DNA from: Geminocystis herdmanii PCC 6308
Lineage (GTDB): Bacteria; Cyanobacteriota; Cyanobacteriia; Cyanobacteriales; Cyanobacteriaceae
Direction: 5' to 3'
Assembly (NCBI RefSeq): GCF_000332235.1
Contig: NZ_CM001775.1
Location: 2,855,770-2,919,769 of the forward strand
Length of the DNA stretch: 64,000 nt
Part shown: positions 20,763 to 51,849 of the stretch, one piece after another
How positions within the stretch are numbered: the stretch's first letter is position 1
How the letters are laid out: the number at the start of each line of letters is the position of its first letter
Program-made: the position numbers and the translations under genes
The notes under the pieces: generated by a model
What the model was told of the DNA's origin: nothing
What the model saw: the letters and a program-made list of their open reading frames with translations, nothing else
The model's database searches: none

Positions 20763-21015
20763 TTAGGGTCTGCTGAATAAGTCAGAAAACTATAAAAATC
20801 AAGGGTTTAGGCATAATACATTAACCAAAAAGTGCGCCGTTTTGAGGATTTTTATTCAAAAATTCGACACTTTTGACCTTACTTTTTAAAATACAACTAT
20901 ACTCATTCTATCTATCAACAGCATCAAAACCTTGATGTTTCAGTATTTCTCCTATCTCCTGTCTCCTGACTCCTCTCTCCTATCCTCATCAAAATACTTT
21001 TTCAGCAAACCCTAA
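20763..21015. mobile_element. Non-coding element with terminal inverted repeats (MITE-like)
   Basis: The ends are TTAGGGTCTGCTGAATAAGT (20763-20782) and the reverse complement of ACTTTTTCAGCAAACCCTAA (20996-21015), matching at 18 of 20 positions. No transposase is encoded inside. The right half contains a small CATCAA/TTGATG hairpin and CTCCTGTCTCCTGACTCC-like filler. A related rearranged copy lies at 35249-35378, and single ends occur near 12552 and 42421. The element lies directly upstream of the vWA gene. Confidence 0.65.
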
Positions 21016-21036: not shown

Positions 21037-22155
21037 GTGATTAAAAATTGCGATCGAATTACCATCGGTGAGACATTATCCGATAATCAACAATTAGGCT
21101 TAGAATTAGTCTCTAAATTTAGTGGCGGTAGAGATGTAGTTTTTGCCGTTGATTTAACCCAGAGTGTGAGTTTGGATGAGGAAGGTAGAGTCAGACTAAC
21201 ACAAATTGTACAGGATAGTTTAAATAAGGGCGATCGAGTTTATATTGTACCCTTTTCTTCTCAAGTTAATCCGACTAATCCCGATATTAACCCTATTTCC
21301 ATGGAAAATGCCATTATCTTCGCTAATCCGAAAGAAGATATTGAGAGAATTATTGAGCAAATTCCCCTCAGTGCGAATCTTAACGAGAAAAATACCGATA
21401 TTCACCAAGCAGAGCATTTTATTTACCAAAATTTAGCCCATATTAATCAAAAACGTCTTTGTGAGAATCAACCTATTAAACATCAATCCGTAGTGTGGTT
21501 AACGGATGCACCTTTAAAAACCGAAGCGGGTATCACTTCTGATGTCTGGGTAGAAACGCCCTATAATAGCCCCTATCGTAATTCTAACAGTCCAGAGAGT
21601 CTCGATCGAGCCAACTGGTTAAATCATCTTCCTCTCAACTCTCGTAGCAAGAATATTAGCAATTATCAACTCACTGTTGTTGATATTAAACCCACTGTAC
21701 AAGAATTTTGTACTCCAGCCCCCGGCGGAAAAGAAACTTGTGTAGTAAATAGTTATATCGCTAGTCAATTATGGCTACCTACTACCATTTTATCCCTCAT
21801 TATTCTTAGCTTATTGGGAGGAGGAATTTTTTGGTGGAGATATATTAATAGTATTAGTAAGCCTTTGAAATTATCGATCGAAATTAATAATAATGATGAC
21901 AAAGAAATCAAATATTTAAAAAATCAAAATAGTCTAGCCATTGGGGAGGATATAGAATGTTTTGGCGGAGAAATCAGAGGTTATTTAAAACGAGAAGGCA
22001 ATAAACTTTTTATCGAGCCGAATAACACTTTACCTATTATTTATAGAGGTAGAGAATTAAGACAAAAACAATTAATCGAAGGGAATATTATTAGACTTAA
22101 TTTACCTTATAATGACAGAGATTTTGAAATTAAAATTATTGTATCTAAAAATTAG
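21037..22155 (+). CDS. vWA-domain membrane protein with C-terminal FHA-like region
   Basis: The 372-residue product begins at GTG 21037. A von Willebrand A domain (about 30-215) shows VVFAVDLTQSVS, a MIDAS-like DxTxS site, and VVWLTDAP. It is followed by one transmembrane helix (LWLPTTILSLIILSLLGGGIFWW, about 247-269) and a cytoplasmic beta-rich tail (SLAIGEDIECFGGEIRGYLKR) that looks FHA-like. Relatives that I recall have extra N-terminal sequence with a signal peptide. Here the frame starts just 22 bases after a MITE end, so the 5' part may be lost. It heads the tubulin/ZorA-like locus. Confidence 0.7.
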   Translation: MIKNCDRITIGETLSDNQQLGLELVSKFSGGRDVVFAVDLTQSVSLDEEGRVRLTQIVQDSLNKGDRVYIVPFSSQVNPTNPDINPISMENAIIFANPKEDIERIIEQIPLSANLNEKNTDIHQAEHFIYQNLAHINQKRLCENQPIKHQSVVWLTDAPLKTEAGITSDVWVETPYNSPYRNSNSPESLDRANWLNHLPLNSRSKNISNYQLTVVDIKPTVQEFCTPAPGGKETCVVNSYIASQLWLPTTILSLIILSLLGGGIFWWRYINSISKPLKLSIEINNNDDKEIKYLKNQNSLAIGEDIECFGGEIRGYLKREGNKLFIEPNNTLPIIYRGRELRQKQLIEGNIIRLNLPYNDRDFEIKIIVSKN

Positions 22156-22208
22156 TTTAACTATTAAATTTCTCTAAAATCATTATAACTTGGTTCGTAG
22201 TAACGGCT

Positions 22209-22415
22209 TTAGCCGTCTTTATATAAACCCTCATCTTCAGGAGCATATCCATTTAAAAATCCTTGATGATTGCGAATGAGATTTGTTGATTTAATCATAT
22301 CATCTGGTACATTATTTTCTAACTCAGTAATTAATGTGACTTGATATTTTTGATTAGGTTTTAAATTTAAAGTAGTTTCAGGTTGAAAAACTCTACCATA
22401 TTCGATCGAATATTC
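22209..22415 (-). pseudogene. Remnant of an AF2212/DUF104-like antitoxin gene
   Basis: An open minus-strand frame of about 68 codons (EYGRVFQPETTLNLKPNQKYQ ... then APEDEGLYKDG and a stop) matches the usual start of AF2212/DUF104-type antitoxins, YENGVFKPEEPL-like. It follows directly after an in-frame TAA and contains no start codon at the right place, so the 5' end is missing or mutated. No cognate toxin is next to it. Confidence 0.5.
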
Positions 22416-22452
22416 TTATGTTAAGATATAAGAAAATAATAAGTAAAAATTT

Positions 22453-22680
22453 ATGGGTATTAAAGAACAACTAATCCAAGAAATAGAGCAAACTCCTGAA
22501 GATTTAATATCCGAACTTCTTGACTTCCTGTTATTTATTAAACAACGATATAACAGTGAAGATAAAATTACTGAACAAGAAAAAATTAACATCGCTATTT
22601 CCTTAAAAGATTATCAAGCAGGAGATTATATAACTTTAGAAGAATATGAAGAAAAGATAAGAAAACTTATGAGGAAATAA
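22453..22680 (+). CDS. DUF2281-like small antitoxin-type protein
   Basis: The 75-residue acidic helical protein (MGIKEQLIQEIEQTPEDLISELLDFLLFIKQR) fits the DUF2281/VapB-like group often found beside toxins. The C-terminus ends EEYEEKIRKLMRK. The related 3' end is found again as a fragment at 26929-26957, after the tubulin gene. No toxin follows directly; the next genes form a DUF6883/DUF4926 pair. Confidence 0.6.
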   Translation: MGIKEQLIQEIEQTPEDLISELLDFLLFIKQRYNSEDKITEQEKINIAISLKDYQAGDYITLEEYEEKIRKLMRK

Positions 22681-22727
22681 TAAAAAATATACAACACTTA
22701 CTATGATAAATTAAGTTCAATTAAAAG

Positions 22728-23069
22728 ATGAAATTACCCAATGAAAATAAAGTTAACCCAACTCAAATTGATGAAAAATTAACGACTTATATTTTAAAAG
22801 AAGATCATAAAGATGGTAAAAATAAAGCTCGTTTATTCAAATCAATATTAGGAATTACACTAAATAATAAATATCTCTTAATTGAGGCATTAATTAAAAT
22901 AGCTAAAGAAGAAGATATTTGTCACAGTGAAAATAGCCCTTATGGCAAAAAATATGTTATTGATTTTTTATTAACAACTCCCGATGGTTTTTCGATCGTC
23001 AGAAGTGCTTGGATTATACTTAATAAAGAAAACTATCCCCGTTTAACGACAGTTTATCCTTTAAAATAA
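22728..23069 (+). CDS. DUF6883-like protein
   Basis: The 113-residue protein shows the DUF6883 layout: LPNENKVNPTQIDEKLTTYIL, then DHKDGKNKARLFKSILG and a central helix. It ends with a beta hairpin (YVIDFLLTTPDGFSIVRSAWII). In cyanobacteria this family is usually the first gene of a pair with DUF4926, as here (11-base gap). The pair is suspected to be a toxin-antitoxin-like module; the activity is not known to me. Confidence 0.65.
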   Translation: MKLPNENKVNPTQIDEKLTTYILKEDHKDGKNKARLFKSILGITLNNKYLLIEALIKIAKEEDICHSENSPYGKKYVIDFLLTTPDGFSIVRSAWIILNKENYPRLTTVYPLK

Positions 23070-23080
23070 GGCAAAAAAAT

Positions 23081-23329
23081 ATGAATAAAATTAAATTACA
23101 TGACACTGTAGCTTTAACTGAAAATATCACAATGAATCAATTTATGACTGATAAAAAAATAGTTATACCCAGAGGACAAGTTGGTACAATAGTTGAAGTT
23201 TATTCTGAAGAAAAAGCCTTTGAAGTAGAATTTTCAGACTCCAATGGGCAAACTTATGCTTTAGTATCTCTTAGGGCAGAACAATTAATACTACTTTATT
23301 ATGACACTTCTAATCTTGTTTTAATTTAA
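23081..23329 (+). CDS. DUF4926-like protein
   Basis: The 82-residue protein (IKLHDTVALTENI ... IPRGQVGTIVEVY ... FEVEFSDSNGQTYALVSL) is a typical DUF4926 small beta-barrel, partner of the DUF6883 gene. A decayed copy of its first 30 or so bases occurs at 27113-27143, upstream of the ZorA-like gene, which suggests that the module was duplicated around the tubulin gene. Confidence 0.7.
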   Translation: MNKIKLHDTVALTENITMNQFMTDKKIVIPRGQVGTIVEVYSEEKAFEVEFSDSNGQTYALVSLRAEQLILLYYDTSNLVLI

Positions 23330-23439
23330 CCTTTTGAAAGAAAAATTTATCACAACGAGAATAAAAAATCTCAAATTTTGCATAAATTCCCCATTTCCTA
23401 CTGATAATTAATTAATAGTCCAATTATTTTATAACTATT

Positions 23440-26400
23440 ATGGTTAGCAAGAGTCCTACAGAAACAAAAACCCTCAATATTAAACGTACCGTATGTATTG
23501 GCTTAGGGGGTACTGGTAGAGATATTTTAATGCAAATTCGCCGTTTAATAGTCGATCGATATGGTAAACTGAGCGAGTTACCCGTTGTCAGTTTCGTGCA
23601 TATAGACACCGATAAAAACGCCTCCCAAGTAGCAGGGTTAAAAAGTGGAGACACCTATCACGGCGAGAATATCTTGTTTAAACCTGCCGAATATGTTACG
23701 GCTACGATGAATAAACAGGAAATCAATGATTTAGTAGCAGGATTAGAAGAAAGAAATCCCCATGAAAGAACATCACCTTACAATCATATTGCTAATTGGT
23801 TTCCCCCACAATTAGTAAGAAATTTACAAGCTATAGAAGATGGTGCAGGTGCAATTCGCCCAGTGGGAAGATTAGCCTTTTTTCACAATCATAATAAAAT
23901 TCAGAGTGCTATCAAAAATGCTGATAATAGAACTATCGGACATTCTGAAAAACTATTAAGTAAAAATATAGCCGTTGAATCGGGTACTAATATTTTCGTT
24001 TTTGGTTCATTGTGTGGAGGTACAGGAAGCGGTACATTTATTGATATGGCTTATACTCTCAGAGCCATGTATAGTGATCAAGTAAATATACTCAGAAAGG
24101 GCATAACTTGAGCGAGGTGAAGGTAGGCAACCGGCTACGGGCAACAGGCAAAAGTTTTCTTGTAACATCAAATTATAGCCTTTGCGAGTATAACAAAATT
24201 ATTGGTTACTTTGTCATGACTCCTGAACTATACGGTAATAACGCTGGAGTCAGAGCGAATACTTACGCCGCATTAAAAGAATTAGATTATTATAGTTCTC
24301 CTAAGCGTCGATTTAAACAAAATTATGATGCACAAGGCATTGTTTCCATTGATGAATCTCGCCCTCCTTTTGATTATTGTTACCTAGTGGGCGATCGCAC
24401 TTTTAATGATCATCGAATACTAAATAAAAACAAACTTTCTCAAATTATTGCCTATAAAATTTTTGCAGATTTTGCAGAAGATAAAGAAATTATAGCAGGA
24501 TTAAAACGTAATCGGAAAAACTTTGATTTACCGATTACATTATTTGATGAACATCCCCGTAGTAATGTTCAAAATTATCTAACATTTGGTTTATCAAAAA
24601 TTTATTTTCCCCGAGATTTAACCATTGCGATTTGCCTGAATAAAGTTAAAATGAAACTAATTAACTTCTGGTTATATGGAGACGGGCAGAGTCCAGATTC
24701 AGTAGAATTATTAGACAAATTTTTATTAAATTGGCAGTCAAAAAATGAAACTAATCCTAACATTTTCAAAGCCAAACTAGAATCTGTTACCCAAGAAAAT
24801 GATAAGACATTTAAACAGGTATTAAATAACTGGTTAAGTAAAAATAAAACTGAAATAGATAACTGCAACAATGCAGATGATAGACAGAGATTTATCGATA
24901 AAATCCGTAGTGAAATTAAAAGCCAATTCAAAAAAGTACAACTCGGAGAAACCGAAAATATTAGGGGTGTATGGTTAACTCAATTACAGAAAAATAGTAT
25001 TAAATTAGAAAAACAATTTACTCAAGATATTCTTGATTATTTTGCTAATTTACTCGAACCTTCTAACCCTACTTTTGCCTTAGATAATACTCGAGGTTGG
25101 TTAGAGGCATTATTAACTAAATTAAATGAATATGTAAGAGAATTAGAAGAAGAAAAAGAAAAAGGTATGGCTTTTGTTACCCTTGAAAATATAGATAAAA
25201 AATGGCAAGATTCTTGTCAAAGATTTGATGATATTGAAACCGATAAAAAAGGTTTTTTAGGTATTGGTGGTAAATCTAATAAAACAAAAAATCAAGAATT
25301 TGAGCGAGAAGCAAATCAAAGTATTCAAGACATTGATAAACTTATTCAACGAAACTTTGATTTAACCTTAACAGAAGAATCACTCAAAATAGTAACTAAC
25401 TTAAGACAATTAGTCATAAATCTAAAAACTAAAGCCAGTAATTTTTATAATCTCCTTCAAGATATAGAAAGTTTTTATAAACGCAAAGGAGAAGATTTAA
25501 GTCAAATCGATGATGATGAAATTAACGGAGAGGCAATATTTGAACCTGAAGATAATGATCAATATTATCAAGTTTTATTACCTGAATCAGAAAAAAGAAA
25601 CTTATTCGTAGAAGTTAGTAATAAAATTAACGAAACAGCGACTCTCCCCTCTTCATTATTGTATTTTTTCACCGCCGAAAGAGCCATTGATGAAAGAGAA
25701 TTAAGTGAAATTATTGATGATAATATTGAGGGAAAATTTGGGAATAAGACTATCGATTTAACTGAATCAGTGGTTAATCGTTTTATGCAGAAATATCCTT
25801 TTTCTAGTGGTGAAATTCGTTTACAGCAAATTATTGATGAAGGAGATTTTTTACTGCCATTAAATTTAAGTGAACCCTATTTAATAAATAATTTTGCTCC
25901 TAGTAAAAATGAATCTCCTAGAGTAGAACCAATAATTGCTTTTAAAGGAACTGATGAAAGAGAAAATAAACAATTTCAAGAATTAATTACTCAAAAATTA
26001 GGTTTTCCTTCTGATCGTGTTATTCCATTAATACAATCAAAAAATGAAATTATAATTATTCAAGAAATTGCGGCTTTTCCTTTAAGAATTATTAATGGTT
26101 TACAAACTCTAAAATCTCAATATGAACAACAAAAATCATCTCTCAATGGTTATTCATTACATAACGATTATACAAAGAACTTTTTAGATATAATTCCACC
26201 TCCAGCTAGAGAAATGGAACAATTACAAGATTTATTTTACACTTGTTTAGGATTTGGAAAAATTACTAAAAATATTCCTGTTACTCATAAAAAATATAAA
26301 AAAATAAAACCTGCTGATAGTCATTATACAGCAATAGTTTTAAAAACTGAAAATGAATTAACAGGCGAAAATTATGAGTTAGAATTAAGTCAAAATTGGT

Positions 26401-26918
26401 CTGAAGCATTAGAACAAATTTCACAAAATAAAGCCTTAGTGGAACATTTAGAAGATATAAAAGAAGAATTAATTTATGACATTCAAACTCAACCAGAATT
26501 ATGGACTTCTTATGATTTAAAGTTCAAATCATTTGCTCGTAAAGTTAGTCAAATGAAAGAATCAGATGATAACTTTCCAGAAAAAGATTTATTATTGGGA
26601 AAACCTGCTAATCTTAATTCTCGTCCCAAAGAAGGTATTTTAACTAGAATTTATAAGCAATTTATGACTATTTTAGAAGAAATTAAAACTGAGTTAGATC
26701 AAGAATTAGAATTTGATCAAAATAATGAGACTAATTTCGTTGATGCTGAAATAGATAATTCGGATAATTATATTAATATTAATGTAGAAGAAGTCGATCG
26801 AGAATTTTATGAGAAATGGAAAAATATAACTCCATTAGAATTATTAGAAATGAAAAAAGAAGGTATTTTAAGCACAGAGGAGGTAAATAAAATCAAAAAA
26901 TATGTCTTGGGTTTATAA
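23440..26918 (+). pseudogene. Tubulin-like (Tubulin_2 type) protein gene split by a MITE
   Basis: Codons 1-216 carry the nucleotide-binding half of a large tubulin/FtsZ-like protein. CIGLGGTGRDILMQIRRLI (24-42) and LCGGTGSGTFIDMA (about 191-204, the tubulin signature) are clear. A 102-bp element at 24089-24190 then breaks the frame. The downstream frame resumes IIGYFVMTPELYGNNAGVRANTYAAL and runs to 26918 with long helical regions. Removing the element and one of its two TA flanks gives one frame of 1125 codons, stop included, reading DQVN-NKIIGYFVM. As it stands, a 223-residue N-terminal fragment ending ILRKGIT is made; the rest could only start independently. Family members are thought to polymerise with GTP. 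Confidence 0.85.
24089..24190. mobile_element. 102-bp MITE with terminal inverted repeats, TA-flanked, inside the tubulin gene
   Basis: The left end TACTCAGAAAGGGCATAA pairs with the reverse complement of the right end (TACTCGCAAAGGCTATAA), and both sides are bounded by TA (24087-24088 and 24191-24192). TA duplication is the mark of IS630/Tc1-mariner-type movement. The interior GGTGAAGGTAGGCAA and AACATCAAATTATA segments match the copy at 51737-51840. No protein is encoded, so a transposase elsewhere must have mobilised it. Confidence 0.85.
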
Positions 26919-26928
26919 TGATTAAAAA

Positions 26929-27143
26929 TTAGAAGATAGAATTAAACTTATGAGGTAATCAAATCATTATTTTATAAGTTTTTCTATCGTCAAAATTTAT
27001 TAAAAATTTATTAACAACATTTGGACAATCGAAAGACACCAAGACTGCTGATAAAATTATTAAAAAAATATACCACAGTCGATCGAATAAATCTAGTTTA
27101 AAAAATATATAAATGAAATAAAATTACATGACACGATAACTTT
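26929..27143 (+). pseudogene. Mosaic of toxin-antitoxin gene fragments
   Basis: The gap before the ZorA-like gene contains the 3' end of a DUF2281-like gene (26929-26957, reading EDRIKLMR and a stop). Next comes a frame ending KTADKIIKKIYHSRSNKSSLKNI, like the tail of a small antitoxin. Last is the 5' end of a DUF4926 gene (27113-27143; compare 23086-23115). None is intact. Confidence 0.55.
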
Positions 27144-27188
27144 AACTTAGATATATTTTTGATAAACTCTATAATTACTAAAAACATT

Positions 27189-29495
27189 ATGTTAGAAACA
27201 TTTAAAATTTTTCCGCTATGGTTAACCATAACAACAATAGTTTTCGTTATTTTACCTGCTATTTTATCAGCTTTTACTAGACGTAGTTTATATCAACATT
27301 TACGAGATTTAGAAAAGAAAACAAGAAGATTAGTTAATGGTGATAGTGAAGGAATACAACCTAGATTTATTAATCTTTTGCAACAACGATTTACAAAATC
27401 AAGTCAACAGATAGAAAATGTTAATACCATTGCCTTAATTGACGGAGTATATCATCAAGAAACCATCACTTTTTTAAATATTAAAATTCGTTGTGAAGAA
27501 GCGGAATATATCACTAAAACTATTCCTAATTTACTCTTAGCTTTTGGTTTATTAGGTACATTTTTAGGCATCACCTTAAACTTAAATAGTATCAGTCAAA
27601 TTATTAATACTGGCGGTACAAATATTATTGATTTAACAAGCCAGCTACAGCAACCTTTACAAAGTATGGGGATTGCTTTTATTACCAGTTTAATCGGTTT
27701 ATTCTGTGCATCAATTTTGACAATAATTAATCTTAAATATAATATTAGTTTAGAGAAAAATTCTTTACTAAATAACTTAGAAGACTATCTCGATAATATT
27801 TATAAACCTTTGGTAGAAGGTGACACCAGATTAGATAAAGCAGTTAATAAAATGGTGGATAAACAAACAGAATTTTTAGAGAGATTTCATGAAAAAGTCG
27901 GGCAAGTTTTAGAGCGAACTTTTAAACAAGCGGCAGATAGAATTGCCGAAGAAAATGAGAAATCAGTAAAATTAGCTACTCAAATTTATAATGCTTTATG
28001 GGAAGTTTCTAGTAGTTTAAATACAGGGGCAAATACTTTTCAATTATCGATGGATAAATTAGCTAGTCAAGTAAAGAATCTCGATAATATTGTAGTTAAA
28101 TTAGATAAAAATATCAATAATTTTGCGAATAGTTCTCAACTTATTTTACAAGCATCGAATAAAATAGAAGCGAGTAAGTTTAGTGAAAATTTAGAGAAAA
28201 TTACTGATAATTTAGCTCAAATTCAAAGAGAGTTTACCCTATCGACAAAAGAATTAACCCAAAGTGTAATTATTTTTCATAATGATAGTAAAAAAGCCAC
28301 TGATTTAGCATTAAATATTTACCAAGAGTTAAAAACAGCTAGTGAAAGTTTGGAGGAAAGTTCGGTTTTATTTGCCGATTCAGCTACTACTATTAAAGAA
28401 AGTCAATTTACTCAAAATTTACTCTATGCTAGTGATAATTTAAAAACAATTAAAGAACAATTTTTAGATTTAATTGATAGCTTACACCATTTAATTAAAC
28501 CTCTTGAAAATAATATTCAAACTTTTAATTTATCGATTCATAAAATGAGCGAAATTTCACCCAATTATCAGCAATTTGCCAATTCGATCGAACTCTTAGA
28601 TAAAAGTGCTAATATTTTTATACAATCCGCCGAAACAATTAAAGAAAGTAAATTTAACGATAGTTTACAAGAAACAACAAGTAACATAATTAAAATGGAA
28701 AATATATTTTTAGAAAATATTAAAAATTTTAGTGACATAGTAGAGCCAATAACAATTAATATTAGAACTTTAAAACTTTCTAGTAACAAAATGCAACAAC
28801 TAGCAGAAAATATTGACCAAATTCAATCTAATATTAACATGATTAACGATCGATATTTAGAAATGACTAATACCAGCGGAGAAATTTTATTAAAACTGGG
28901 AGAAATGGCAGTTAATACCAATAATAGCCATAGTCAAGTTATTGATAATTTAAACAGGATAACAAAGCAATTTAGTGATAATTTTAATAATAATTATCCT
29001 TCTCTTATTGGCGAATTGGGGCAAGATATATCCAATAATAATTATGATTTAAAAGGCTTAACTTATAGATTAATTAGTGAGGTAAAACAAAAGGCTAAAG
29101 ATATTAATTATTTATCAAGAATTGAAGGAGATAAAATTCTCACAGAAACTGCTTTTAAATATTTACCCAAAATAGAAGAAAGATTGAGAGAAACTGCAAA
29201 TCAATTTAAACAATATCATTATGATCATATTGATAAAGATGGAAGAAAATGTACTCCTGAAGAAGCAGAAATAATTGCTAATGAATTAAGATATTTAGGC
29301 ATGGAAATAAGAAATATTCAAAATATATCAGATTTAAGATTAATGTATAGAGTAACTTCTTTATTTTCCTATCAAATATCAAGATTTAGGCATTATAAAG
29401 CAAATAAAAATAATCTATCTTTATCTTATTTTATTAACAATGAAGTTCTCAATATTTTAAATGAATGTATGGCTAAAAGTTATTATTTAAGTTAA
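27189..29495 (+). CDS. MotA/TolQ/ZorA-like membrane protein with long coiled-coil tail
   Basis: From the ATG at 27189 (a TTG at 27159 is the alternative) the product is about 768 residues. An N-terminal transmembrane helix (LWLTITTIVFVILPAILSAF) is followed by a MotA/TolQ/ExbB channel core: IPNLLLAFGLLGTFLGITLNL, then LQQPLQSMGIAFITSLIGLFCASIL. These helices form the proton-driven stator pore in the superfamily. After the core comes a 400-residue coiled coil with repeated SANIF/SSVLFADSATTIKES-like segments, then a globular C-terminus. Such a long cytoplasmic tail is characteristic of ZorA of Zorya defence, not of flagellar MotA. It should pair with the OmpA-domain protein encoded next. Confidence 0.85.
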   Translation: MLETFKIFPLWLTITTIVFVILPAILSAFTRRSLYQHLRDLEKKTRRLVNGDSEGIQPRFINLLQQRFTKSSQQIENVNTIALIDGVYHQETITFLNIKIRCEEAEYITKTIPNLLLAFGLLGTFLGITLNLNSISQIINTGGTNIIDLTSQLQQPLQSMGIAFITSLIGLFCASILTIINLKYNISLEKNSLLNNLEDYLDNIYKPLVEGDTRLDKAVNKMVDKQTEFLERFHEKVGQVLERTFKQAADRIAEENEKSVKLATQIYNALWEVSSSLNTGANTFQLSMDKLASQVKNLDNIVVKLDKNINNFANSSQLILQASNKIEASKFSENLEKITDNLAQIQREFTLSTKELTQSVIIFHNDSKKATDLALNIYQELKTASESLEESSVLFADSATTIKESQFTQNLLYASDNLKTIKEQFLDLIDSLHHLIKPLENNIQTFNLSIHKMSEISPNYQQFANSIELLDKSANIFIQSAETIKESKFNDSLQETTSNIIKMENIFLENIKNFSDIVEPITINIRTLKLSSNKMQQLAENIDQIQSNINMINDRYLEMTNTSGEILLKLGEMAVNTNNSHSQVIDNLNRITKQFSDNFNNNYPSLIGELGQDISNNNYDLKGLTYRLISEVKQKAKDINYLSRIEGDKILTETAFKYLPKIEERLRETANQFKQYHYDHIDKDGRKCTPEEAEIIANELRYLGMEIRNIQNISDLRLMYRVTSLFSYQISRFRHYKANKNNLSLSYFINNEVLNILNECMAKSYYLS

Positions 29496-29505
29496 TACTT
29501 GATAT

Positions 29506-29655
29506 TTAATTAACTATACGTCTCCTATTATTCTTAATATCATTTCTGGCGTTATTGAGAGAATCATTTAACTCTTGATTAGAATTAATTTCTATCATTT
29601 CAAATTCGTCCACATAACTTATTTCTTGTATGTATCTGGTTGTTGCTGTTTCCAT
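29506..29655 (-). CDS. Small hypothetical ORF, possible antitoxin fragment
   Basis: A 49-codon minus-strand frame (METATTRYIQEISYVDEFEMI ... then NNARNDIKNNRRRIVN) starts with ATG at 29653-29655 and lies directly downstream of the hepT remnant. It has no recognised domain. It may be a leftover antitoxin or chance; the charged composition and position favour the former only weakly. Confidence 0.3.
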   Translation of the reverse strand: METATTRYIQEISYVDEFEMIEINSNQELNDSLNNARNDIKNNRRRIVN

Positions 29656-29683
29656 AAAATAAATTTATTTCATTAATCCTTAG

Positions 29684-29998
29684 TTAAAGGTTTTGAATAA
29701 TATCCTCAATGACTGGTTTTAGTAAAAGTAAATCTATTGTGATAGTATCCCAGACAATTTGATAGTTAATACCAAAATAATAATGAATGATTTTATCTCT
29801 CATACCAGTCAATCCTTTCCATTTTATCTGAGGGTATTTTATTCTGATATTTTCAGGGATATTTTTAGTCGCTTCTCCTATTCTTTCTATGGCGTGATTT
29901 ATGGCAAATAGAGTTTTTGTATCATTGACAAAAGAATCAAACGTTAAATCTTCTGTAAATGTTTCAATAATTAATAATGTTTCTAAAATATCTTCTAA
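29684..29998 (-). pseudogene. 5'-truncated HepT-like (DUF86, HEPN) toxin
   Basis: The minus strand reads LEDILETLLIIETFTEDL ... AIERIGEATKNIPENIR ... GMRDKIIHYYFGINYQIVW to a stop at 29684. The HEPN catalytic R-x4-H is present (RDKIIH). The first ten or so residues and the start codon are missing: the frame runs straight into the OmpA-domain gene. It is related to the intact HepT at 55856-56197. No minimal nucleotidyltransferase partner is adjacent. Confidence 0.75.
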
Positions 29999-30000
29999 AT

Positions 30001-30375
30001 AATAGTATTATTCCCCAAATAAAAACAATTGTTAAAGAAAGAAATATCGACTTTATCCAAGTAATTGGCCATACAGATGGACAAGTTTTAGGTTTAACAG
30101 GAAATCTCGATCGAAACTTAGAAAAAGTAGCACAAAATCAGCTAAAAGTCAACCAATTAAATGCAGGTTCAAATGCAGATTTAGCCTTAATGAGAGCCTT
30201 AGCAGTGGTACAAGAATTACAATCAAATCCCGACTTAAAAAATGTCAAATTTAGAGCCTATTCCGCTGCCCAATTATACCTACCATCAGGAGAATTAGCC
30301 CCCTTAAATCGTCAAGCTGACGAAAGAAGAAGACGTATTGAAATTCGCTTTATTCCTCCAGCACAAAACAATTAA
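30001..30375 (+). pseudogene. 5'-truncated OmpA/MotB/ZorB-like peptidoglycan-binding domain
   Basis: About 124 codons encode an OmpA-like C-terminal domain: FIQVIGHTDGQ, SNADLALMRALAVVQEL, then RRRRIEIRFIPP. These residues normally hold diaminopimelate of peptidoglycan and anchor a MotB- or ZorB-like stator. The membrane helix and linker expected before the domain are absent, and upstream codons are antisense hepT. A TTG at 29977 could start a soluble 132-residue product, but it could not act as a stator anchor. Confidence 0.75.
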
Positions 30376-51636: not shown

Positions 51637-51736
51637 ATATATACCCCTAATGATCGTTAATAAAGATTTTTGAGATTGCTTGATATTTCCCAATGACAGA
51701 ATATCGTTATCTTTGCGTAATTCCTAGCTTATTTTA

Positions 51737-51840
51737 TACTCATCAAGGTTATAATCTGATGTTGCAAAATGTATAGTTGCCTCTTGCCTACTTGCCTTTT
51801 GCCTACCTTCACCAAACTCAAATTATGCCCTCGCCAAGTA
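51737..51840 (-). mobile_element. 104-bp MITE copy, TA-flanked
   Basis: The element has ends TACTCATCAAGGTTATAAT and the reverse complement of ATTATGCCCTCGCCAAGTA. It is bounded by TA at 51735-51736 and 51841-51842. Its interior GGTGAAGGTAGGCAAAAGGC and AACATCAGATTATAA (minus-strand sense) match the copy that splits the tubulin gene. It lies between the CHAD and trmJ genes without harm to either. Confidence 0.8.
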
Positions 51841-51849
51841 TAGCACAGC

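Follow-up and report, generated by a model that had tools for sequence, protein, structure and literature searches.

Genes at the locus

The DNA analyzed here (the window) is a 64,000-nucleotide stretch of the chromosome of Geminocystis herdmanii PCC 6308, which is available as one contig of 4.26 Mb. The window carries an operon in which a vWA-type gene is followed by a tubulin-like gene, a MotA/ZorA-like gene and an OmpA/ZorB-like gene (Table 1), a gene order that is conserved in seven relatives. The tubulin-like gene, of the Tubulin_2 (FtsZl1) type, is present in two pieces. Its frame from 23440 ends in a stop codon at 24109-24111 and a second frame runs to 26918, confirming the change of frame described in an earlier note on this sequence. 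The two pieces occupy adjacent positions of PF13809 (195|196) and together cover its positions 1-355, the tubulin-like GTPase domain. The 5′ piece shows ∼75% identity to its closest intact homologues, and the 3′ piece, whose open frame from a TTG inside the intervening MITE has 936 aa, shows 59% identity over 960 aa to intact homologues.

Table 1. Features at and around the interrupted tubulin-like gene (positions within the window)
Feature	Position	Strand	Evidence or remarks
Related empty site: 94% identical repeat without the MITE that is found in its paralogue L011	20766..20980	+	
Probable vWA-type protein gene, intact, same operon	21037..22155	+	77-78% identity over full length to relatives
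5′ piece of Tubulin_2 (FtsZl1-type) gene, 223 aa, final residues MITE-derived	23440..24111	+	PF13809 positions 1-195, E 5.6e-65
TA target site, left copy	24087..24088	.	Sequence; TA duplication of the family seen against empty IS630 copies
MITE, 102 bp, imperfect terminal inverted repeats	24089..24190	+	Sequence; letter-identical copy elsewhere in the genome
Putative re-initiation site: Shine-Dalgarno-like motif and TTG overlapping the stop (TTGA)	24095..24110	+	Reading of the sequence only
3′ piece of the same Tubulin_2 gene	24108..26918	+	PF13809 positions 196-355, E 5.7e-30
TA target site, right copy	24191..24192	.	Sequence
MotA/ExbB-type (ZorA-like) gene, same operon	27159..29495	+	PF01618 E 9.1e-5, just under the cut-off; PADLOC ZorA E 2.9e-14
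HepT-like gene remnant, joined to the OmpA remnant	29684..30002 (limits approximate)	-	Frame read in the sequence
OmpA/ZorB-like gene remnant	29977..30375	+	Alignment covers residues 94-225 of a homologue of 225 aa
MITE family copy, 108-bp sister type	51735..51842	-	G000:C1:2907504-2907611

The vWA-type gene gave no Pfam hit, and its probable assignment is based on a DLTQS motif and on what is known of the composition of FtsZl1 operons, for which the association of vWA, FtsZl1 and OmpA genes was described by Makarova and Koonin 2010 (PMC2875224). As in the FtsZl1 family (Pfam Tubulin_2), a tubulin-superfamily gene stands beside vWA and OmpA-type genes; unlike in that family, the present gene is interrupted and the present OmpA-type gene is truncated. 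The neighbouring MotA-type gene resembles ZorA, and MotA is absent from the text of PMC2875224. Partial matches to both ZorA (E 2.9e-14) and ZorB (E 1.6e-4) were obtained with PADLOC, with no match to ZorC/D, ZorE or the ZorF/G effector among the five operon proteins scanned. Note that the operon (21037-30375) combines ZorA/ZorB-like motor genes with a tubulin-like protein in the place where known Zorya effectors would be.

The operon is not intact, a finding that goes beyond the earlier note. The N-terminal half of the OmpA/ZorB-like protein (its first 93-117 or so residues), including the membrane anchor, is gone, and what is left is joined to a HepT-like remnant, so named by sequence likeness, not by profile search. 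A relative (G001) has the HepT-like remnant together with a full-length OmpA-like gene, which makes a deletion in the present lineage the simplest reading. Given the loss of this first half, the FtsZl1-type system is probably dispensable. The same chromosome has two more Tubulin_2-like genes at other places, both with long open frames.

A DUF6883 gene and a small gene occupy the interval between the vWA-type and tubulin-like genes (22728-23329). Both are 93-94% identical to those of a relative from another genus (L109), compared with ∼55% for the tubulin-like genes, and horizontal transfer of the two is therefore likely. The tubulin-like gene of that relative is shortened (754 aa).

The inserted element

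Positions 24087-24192 read TA-[TACTCAGAAAGG...GCGAGTA]-TA and consist of a 102-bp element and its TA duplication, within the Tubulin_2 gene. The earlier note had placed an element with terminal inverted repeats and TA on both sides at 24089-24190, and these coordinates are exact. The two 25-nt arms (24087-24111 and 24168-24192) show 80% complementarity; counting from TATA, the two ends agree with each other at 20 of 26 positions. The element has no transposase, its longest frame being ∼35 codons. A conserved MITE-encoded peptide was considered and rejected, as the sister types differ and the copy in a relative (L056) has a stop in that frame. Neither a terminator nor a promoter above chance was found within the element. 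As RNA it folds somewhat better than shuffled sequences (z -2.4), as is to be expected from its inverted ends.

When the flanks were joined at one TA, removing the element and the other TA, a single frame of 1125 codons including the stop was obtained (1124 residues, no internal stop), as had been claimed; with both TAs kept, the joined sequence contained 83 stops. The comparison with uninterrupted homologues that had been suggested as a check was carried out, and the join falls within continuous alignment. The 3′ part of the gene was matched in 23 of 40 related genomes, and ∼15 near-full-length homologues (38-66% identical) continue through the insertion site, which lies shortly past the GGTGSG nucleotide-binding loop. 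At the DNA level, six homologues align across the site free of gaps and two more with few gaps. The MITE segment is present in none of the homologues aligned across the site and is coding in no homologue seen, which upholds the preference in the earlier note for a MITE over a coding origin. When the 3′ piece was compared with genome contigs, one relative only was matched, a metagenome-assembled cyanobacterium.

Other copies, broken genes and empty sites

The MITE family has ∼33 near-complete dispersed copies in the chromosome. The 106-bp segment comprising the element and its TAs occurs letter for letter a second time, at C1:570389; this and the ∼30 related copies show that the segment is not a product of chance. 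A further copy, at 4169551, is a 92-bp deletion derivative, and a 108-bp sister type (74-77% identity to the 102-bp MITE) is present in ∼30 copies, of which 15 are mutually identical, as are nine others. TATA was found at both ends of all 30 copies examined. Three loci (L012, L015 and L021) have common flanks around the MITE that are apparently another insertion sequence, and the MITE has probably spread inside it.

To assess gene disruption, the flanks were joined blindly at all 30 copies, before gene identities were known, and a frame was scored as restored if the joined frame had at least 100 codons and reached at least 25 codons into both flanks. Exact joining restored a frame at 13 copies, joining with two bases added at 1 and joining with one base added at 0. 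The identical copy at C1:570389 also breaks a gene, in which the exact join restores a frame of 495 codons. When the fragments of these genes were searched without joining, they matched a protein kinase, an ABC transporter membrane domain, a type I restriction subunit, a DnaG-type zinc finger and others. Of the sites in the frame scan, one lay in a toxin-antitoxin gene of the PemK type (searched as the unjoined piece) and another in a HepT-like one. The family has thus been active recently, in the style of Tc1/mariner-IS630 elements, and has broken a dozen or so genes, which the earlier note had not reported.

The target duplication was observed directly in a resident IS630 element, one copy of which has a MITE at its 5′ end that is missing from three sister copies. 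Alignment of the copies with and without the MITE shows a single TA replaced by TA-element-TA. Empty versions were seen for the sites of two other copies of the family, one of them within this window; the latter (20766-20980) is a related and not an identical empty version of the site occupied at L011, the dinucleotide there being CA.

Interpretation

We propose that a transposase acting in trans placed the MITE at a TA past codon 216 of the tubulin-like gene. The insertion duplicated the TA and added 104 bp; the added bases shift the frame, and translation ends after residue 223. Inactivation of the gene is very probable, and the OmpA/ZorB-like gene of its operon is truncated as well. We put the probability of this account as a whole, from insertion in trans to a damaged operon, at about 95%. 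The claim in the earlier note that the insertion is recent gains support from the letter-identical second copy and from the otherwise open 1124-codon frame.

The split might instead be functional, with translation stopping at 24111, re-initiating at the TTG of the MITE and yielding two half-proteins that reassemble. The stop and start overlap, a Shine-Dalgarno-like AAAGGG lies 6 nt upstream of the TTG at 24108, and the second identical copy sits in its gene in the same orientation and phase, for which the chance is 1 in 6. However, the MITE is oriented with the gene in 5 and against it in 8 of the 13 confirmed gene insertions, giving no sign of selection for re-initiation or read-through. The insertion also splits the GTPase domain, at a point past the GGTGSG loop, and there is further damage in the operon. 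We consider a functional split improbable. Slightly less probable again is a further version of this idea, in which the MITE would serve as a portable ribosome-binding site and start codon, and the overlap with the stop would keep the split gene translationally coupled and working.

Repeats are prone to misassembly, but a sequencing or assembly artefact is very hard to reconcile with a perfect TA-bounded copy within unique flanks on a single 4.26-Mb contig, and with ∼30 more copies of the same anatomy. An ORF finder lists two open frames at the locus, as would be the case if the 102 bp were an old part of the gene or if two genes had always been separate. That reading is already refuted, and its probability negligible: the segment is a dispersed repeat, and it is lacking where intact homologues from many species are aligned across the site.

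Inactivation by insertion of the MITE is thus the reading that we retain. The breaking of a gene by a MITE is an ordinary event (PMC10969869), seen here unusually cleanly. Cyanobacterial MITEs such as Nezha (Zhou et al. 2008, cited through PMC10969869) are described as short, non-autonomous, multi-copy and gene-inactivating, and MITEs have inactivated microcystin genes in Anabaena (reviewed in PMC10969869). The present family is like these in being short and non-autonomous, in its many copies and in inactivating genes by insertion, with Nezha likened by its description; unlike for them, no autonomous partner was found in the searches described below. The locus is a clear example of a cyanobacterial gene recently inactivated by a MITE, with a recent family-wide burst and a damaged operon as added findings. 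It also draws attention to a family whose recent insertions have broken a dozen or so genes of one chromosome, including those for a type I restriction subunit, a protein kinase and an ABC transporter. As a caution, two proteins annotated at the tubulin-like locus would be pieces of one.

Search for the mobilizing transposase

In ISY100 (ISTcSa) of Synechocystis, a member of the Tc1/mariner-IS630 family, the TA target is duplicated (PMC2170065, PMC6400869) and imperfect 24-bp inverted repeats are thought to be sufficient for transposition (PMC2170065). The present MITE shares the TA duplication and the imperfect inverted repeats with ISY100, and the ends of ISY100-group elements likewise begin with TATA; unlike ISY100, it carries no transposase. 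The ends of IS630 elements of the ISY100 group read TATAGT.ATTTCAAATAAG..TGAGA or similar, compared with TATACT.....AGG..ATAA.YTGA in the MITE. The TA target and its duplication, the structure of the ends and the size, which fit as they do for ISY100, suggest mobilization in trans by a transposase of the Tc1/mariner-IS630 type.

A parent was sought in two ways. IS630 transposases were searched with PF13358 in this genome and with PF01710 in 24 genomes, and the end pattern was compared with this genome, with 24 relatives and with 293 genomes of the order. The end pattern revealed no autonomous element with the same ends in this genome or in the 293 genomes, a result that speaks against the proposed account; the matches inspected were either single ends or of MITE size, and none had a transposase between matching ends. 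A search of the plasmid collection with the MITE DNA gave no match. IS630 relatives carried by Synechocystis and Microcystis plasmids were rejected as parents since their ends differ. The resident IS630 (L032-L035) was also rejected: its ends differ (TATAGCAAT...), and it is itself a target of the MITE. This orphan family thus raises the question of which transposase moves the MITE. Note also that, at L034 (G000:C1:3412848-3412955), the MITE copy at the 5′ end of the IS630 puts an ATG in frame with the transposase.
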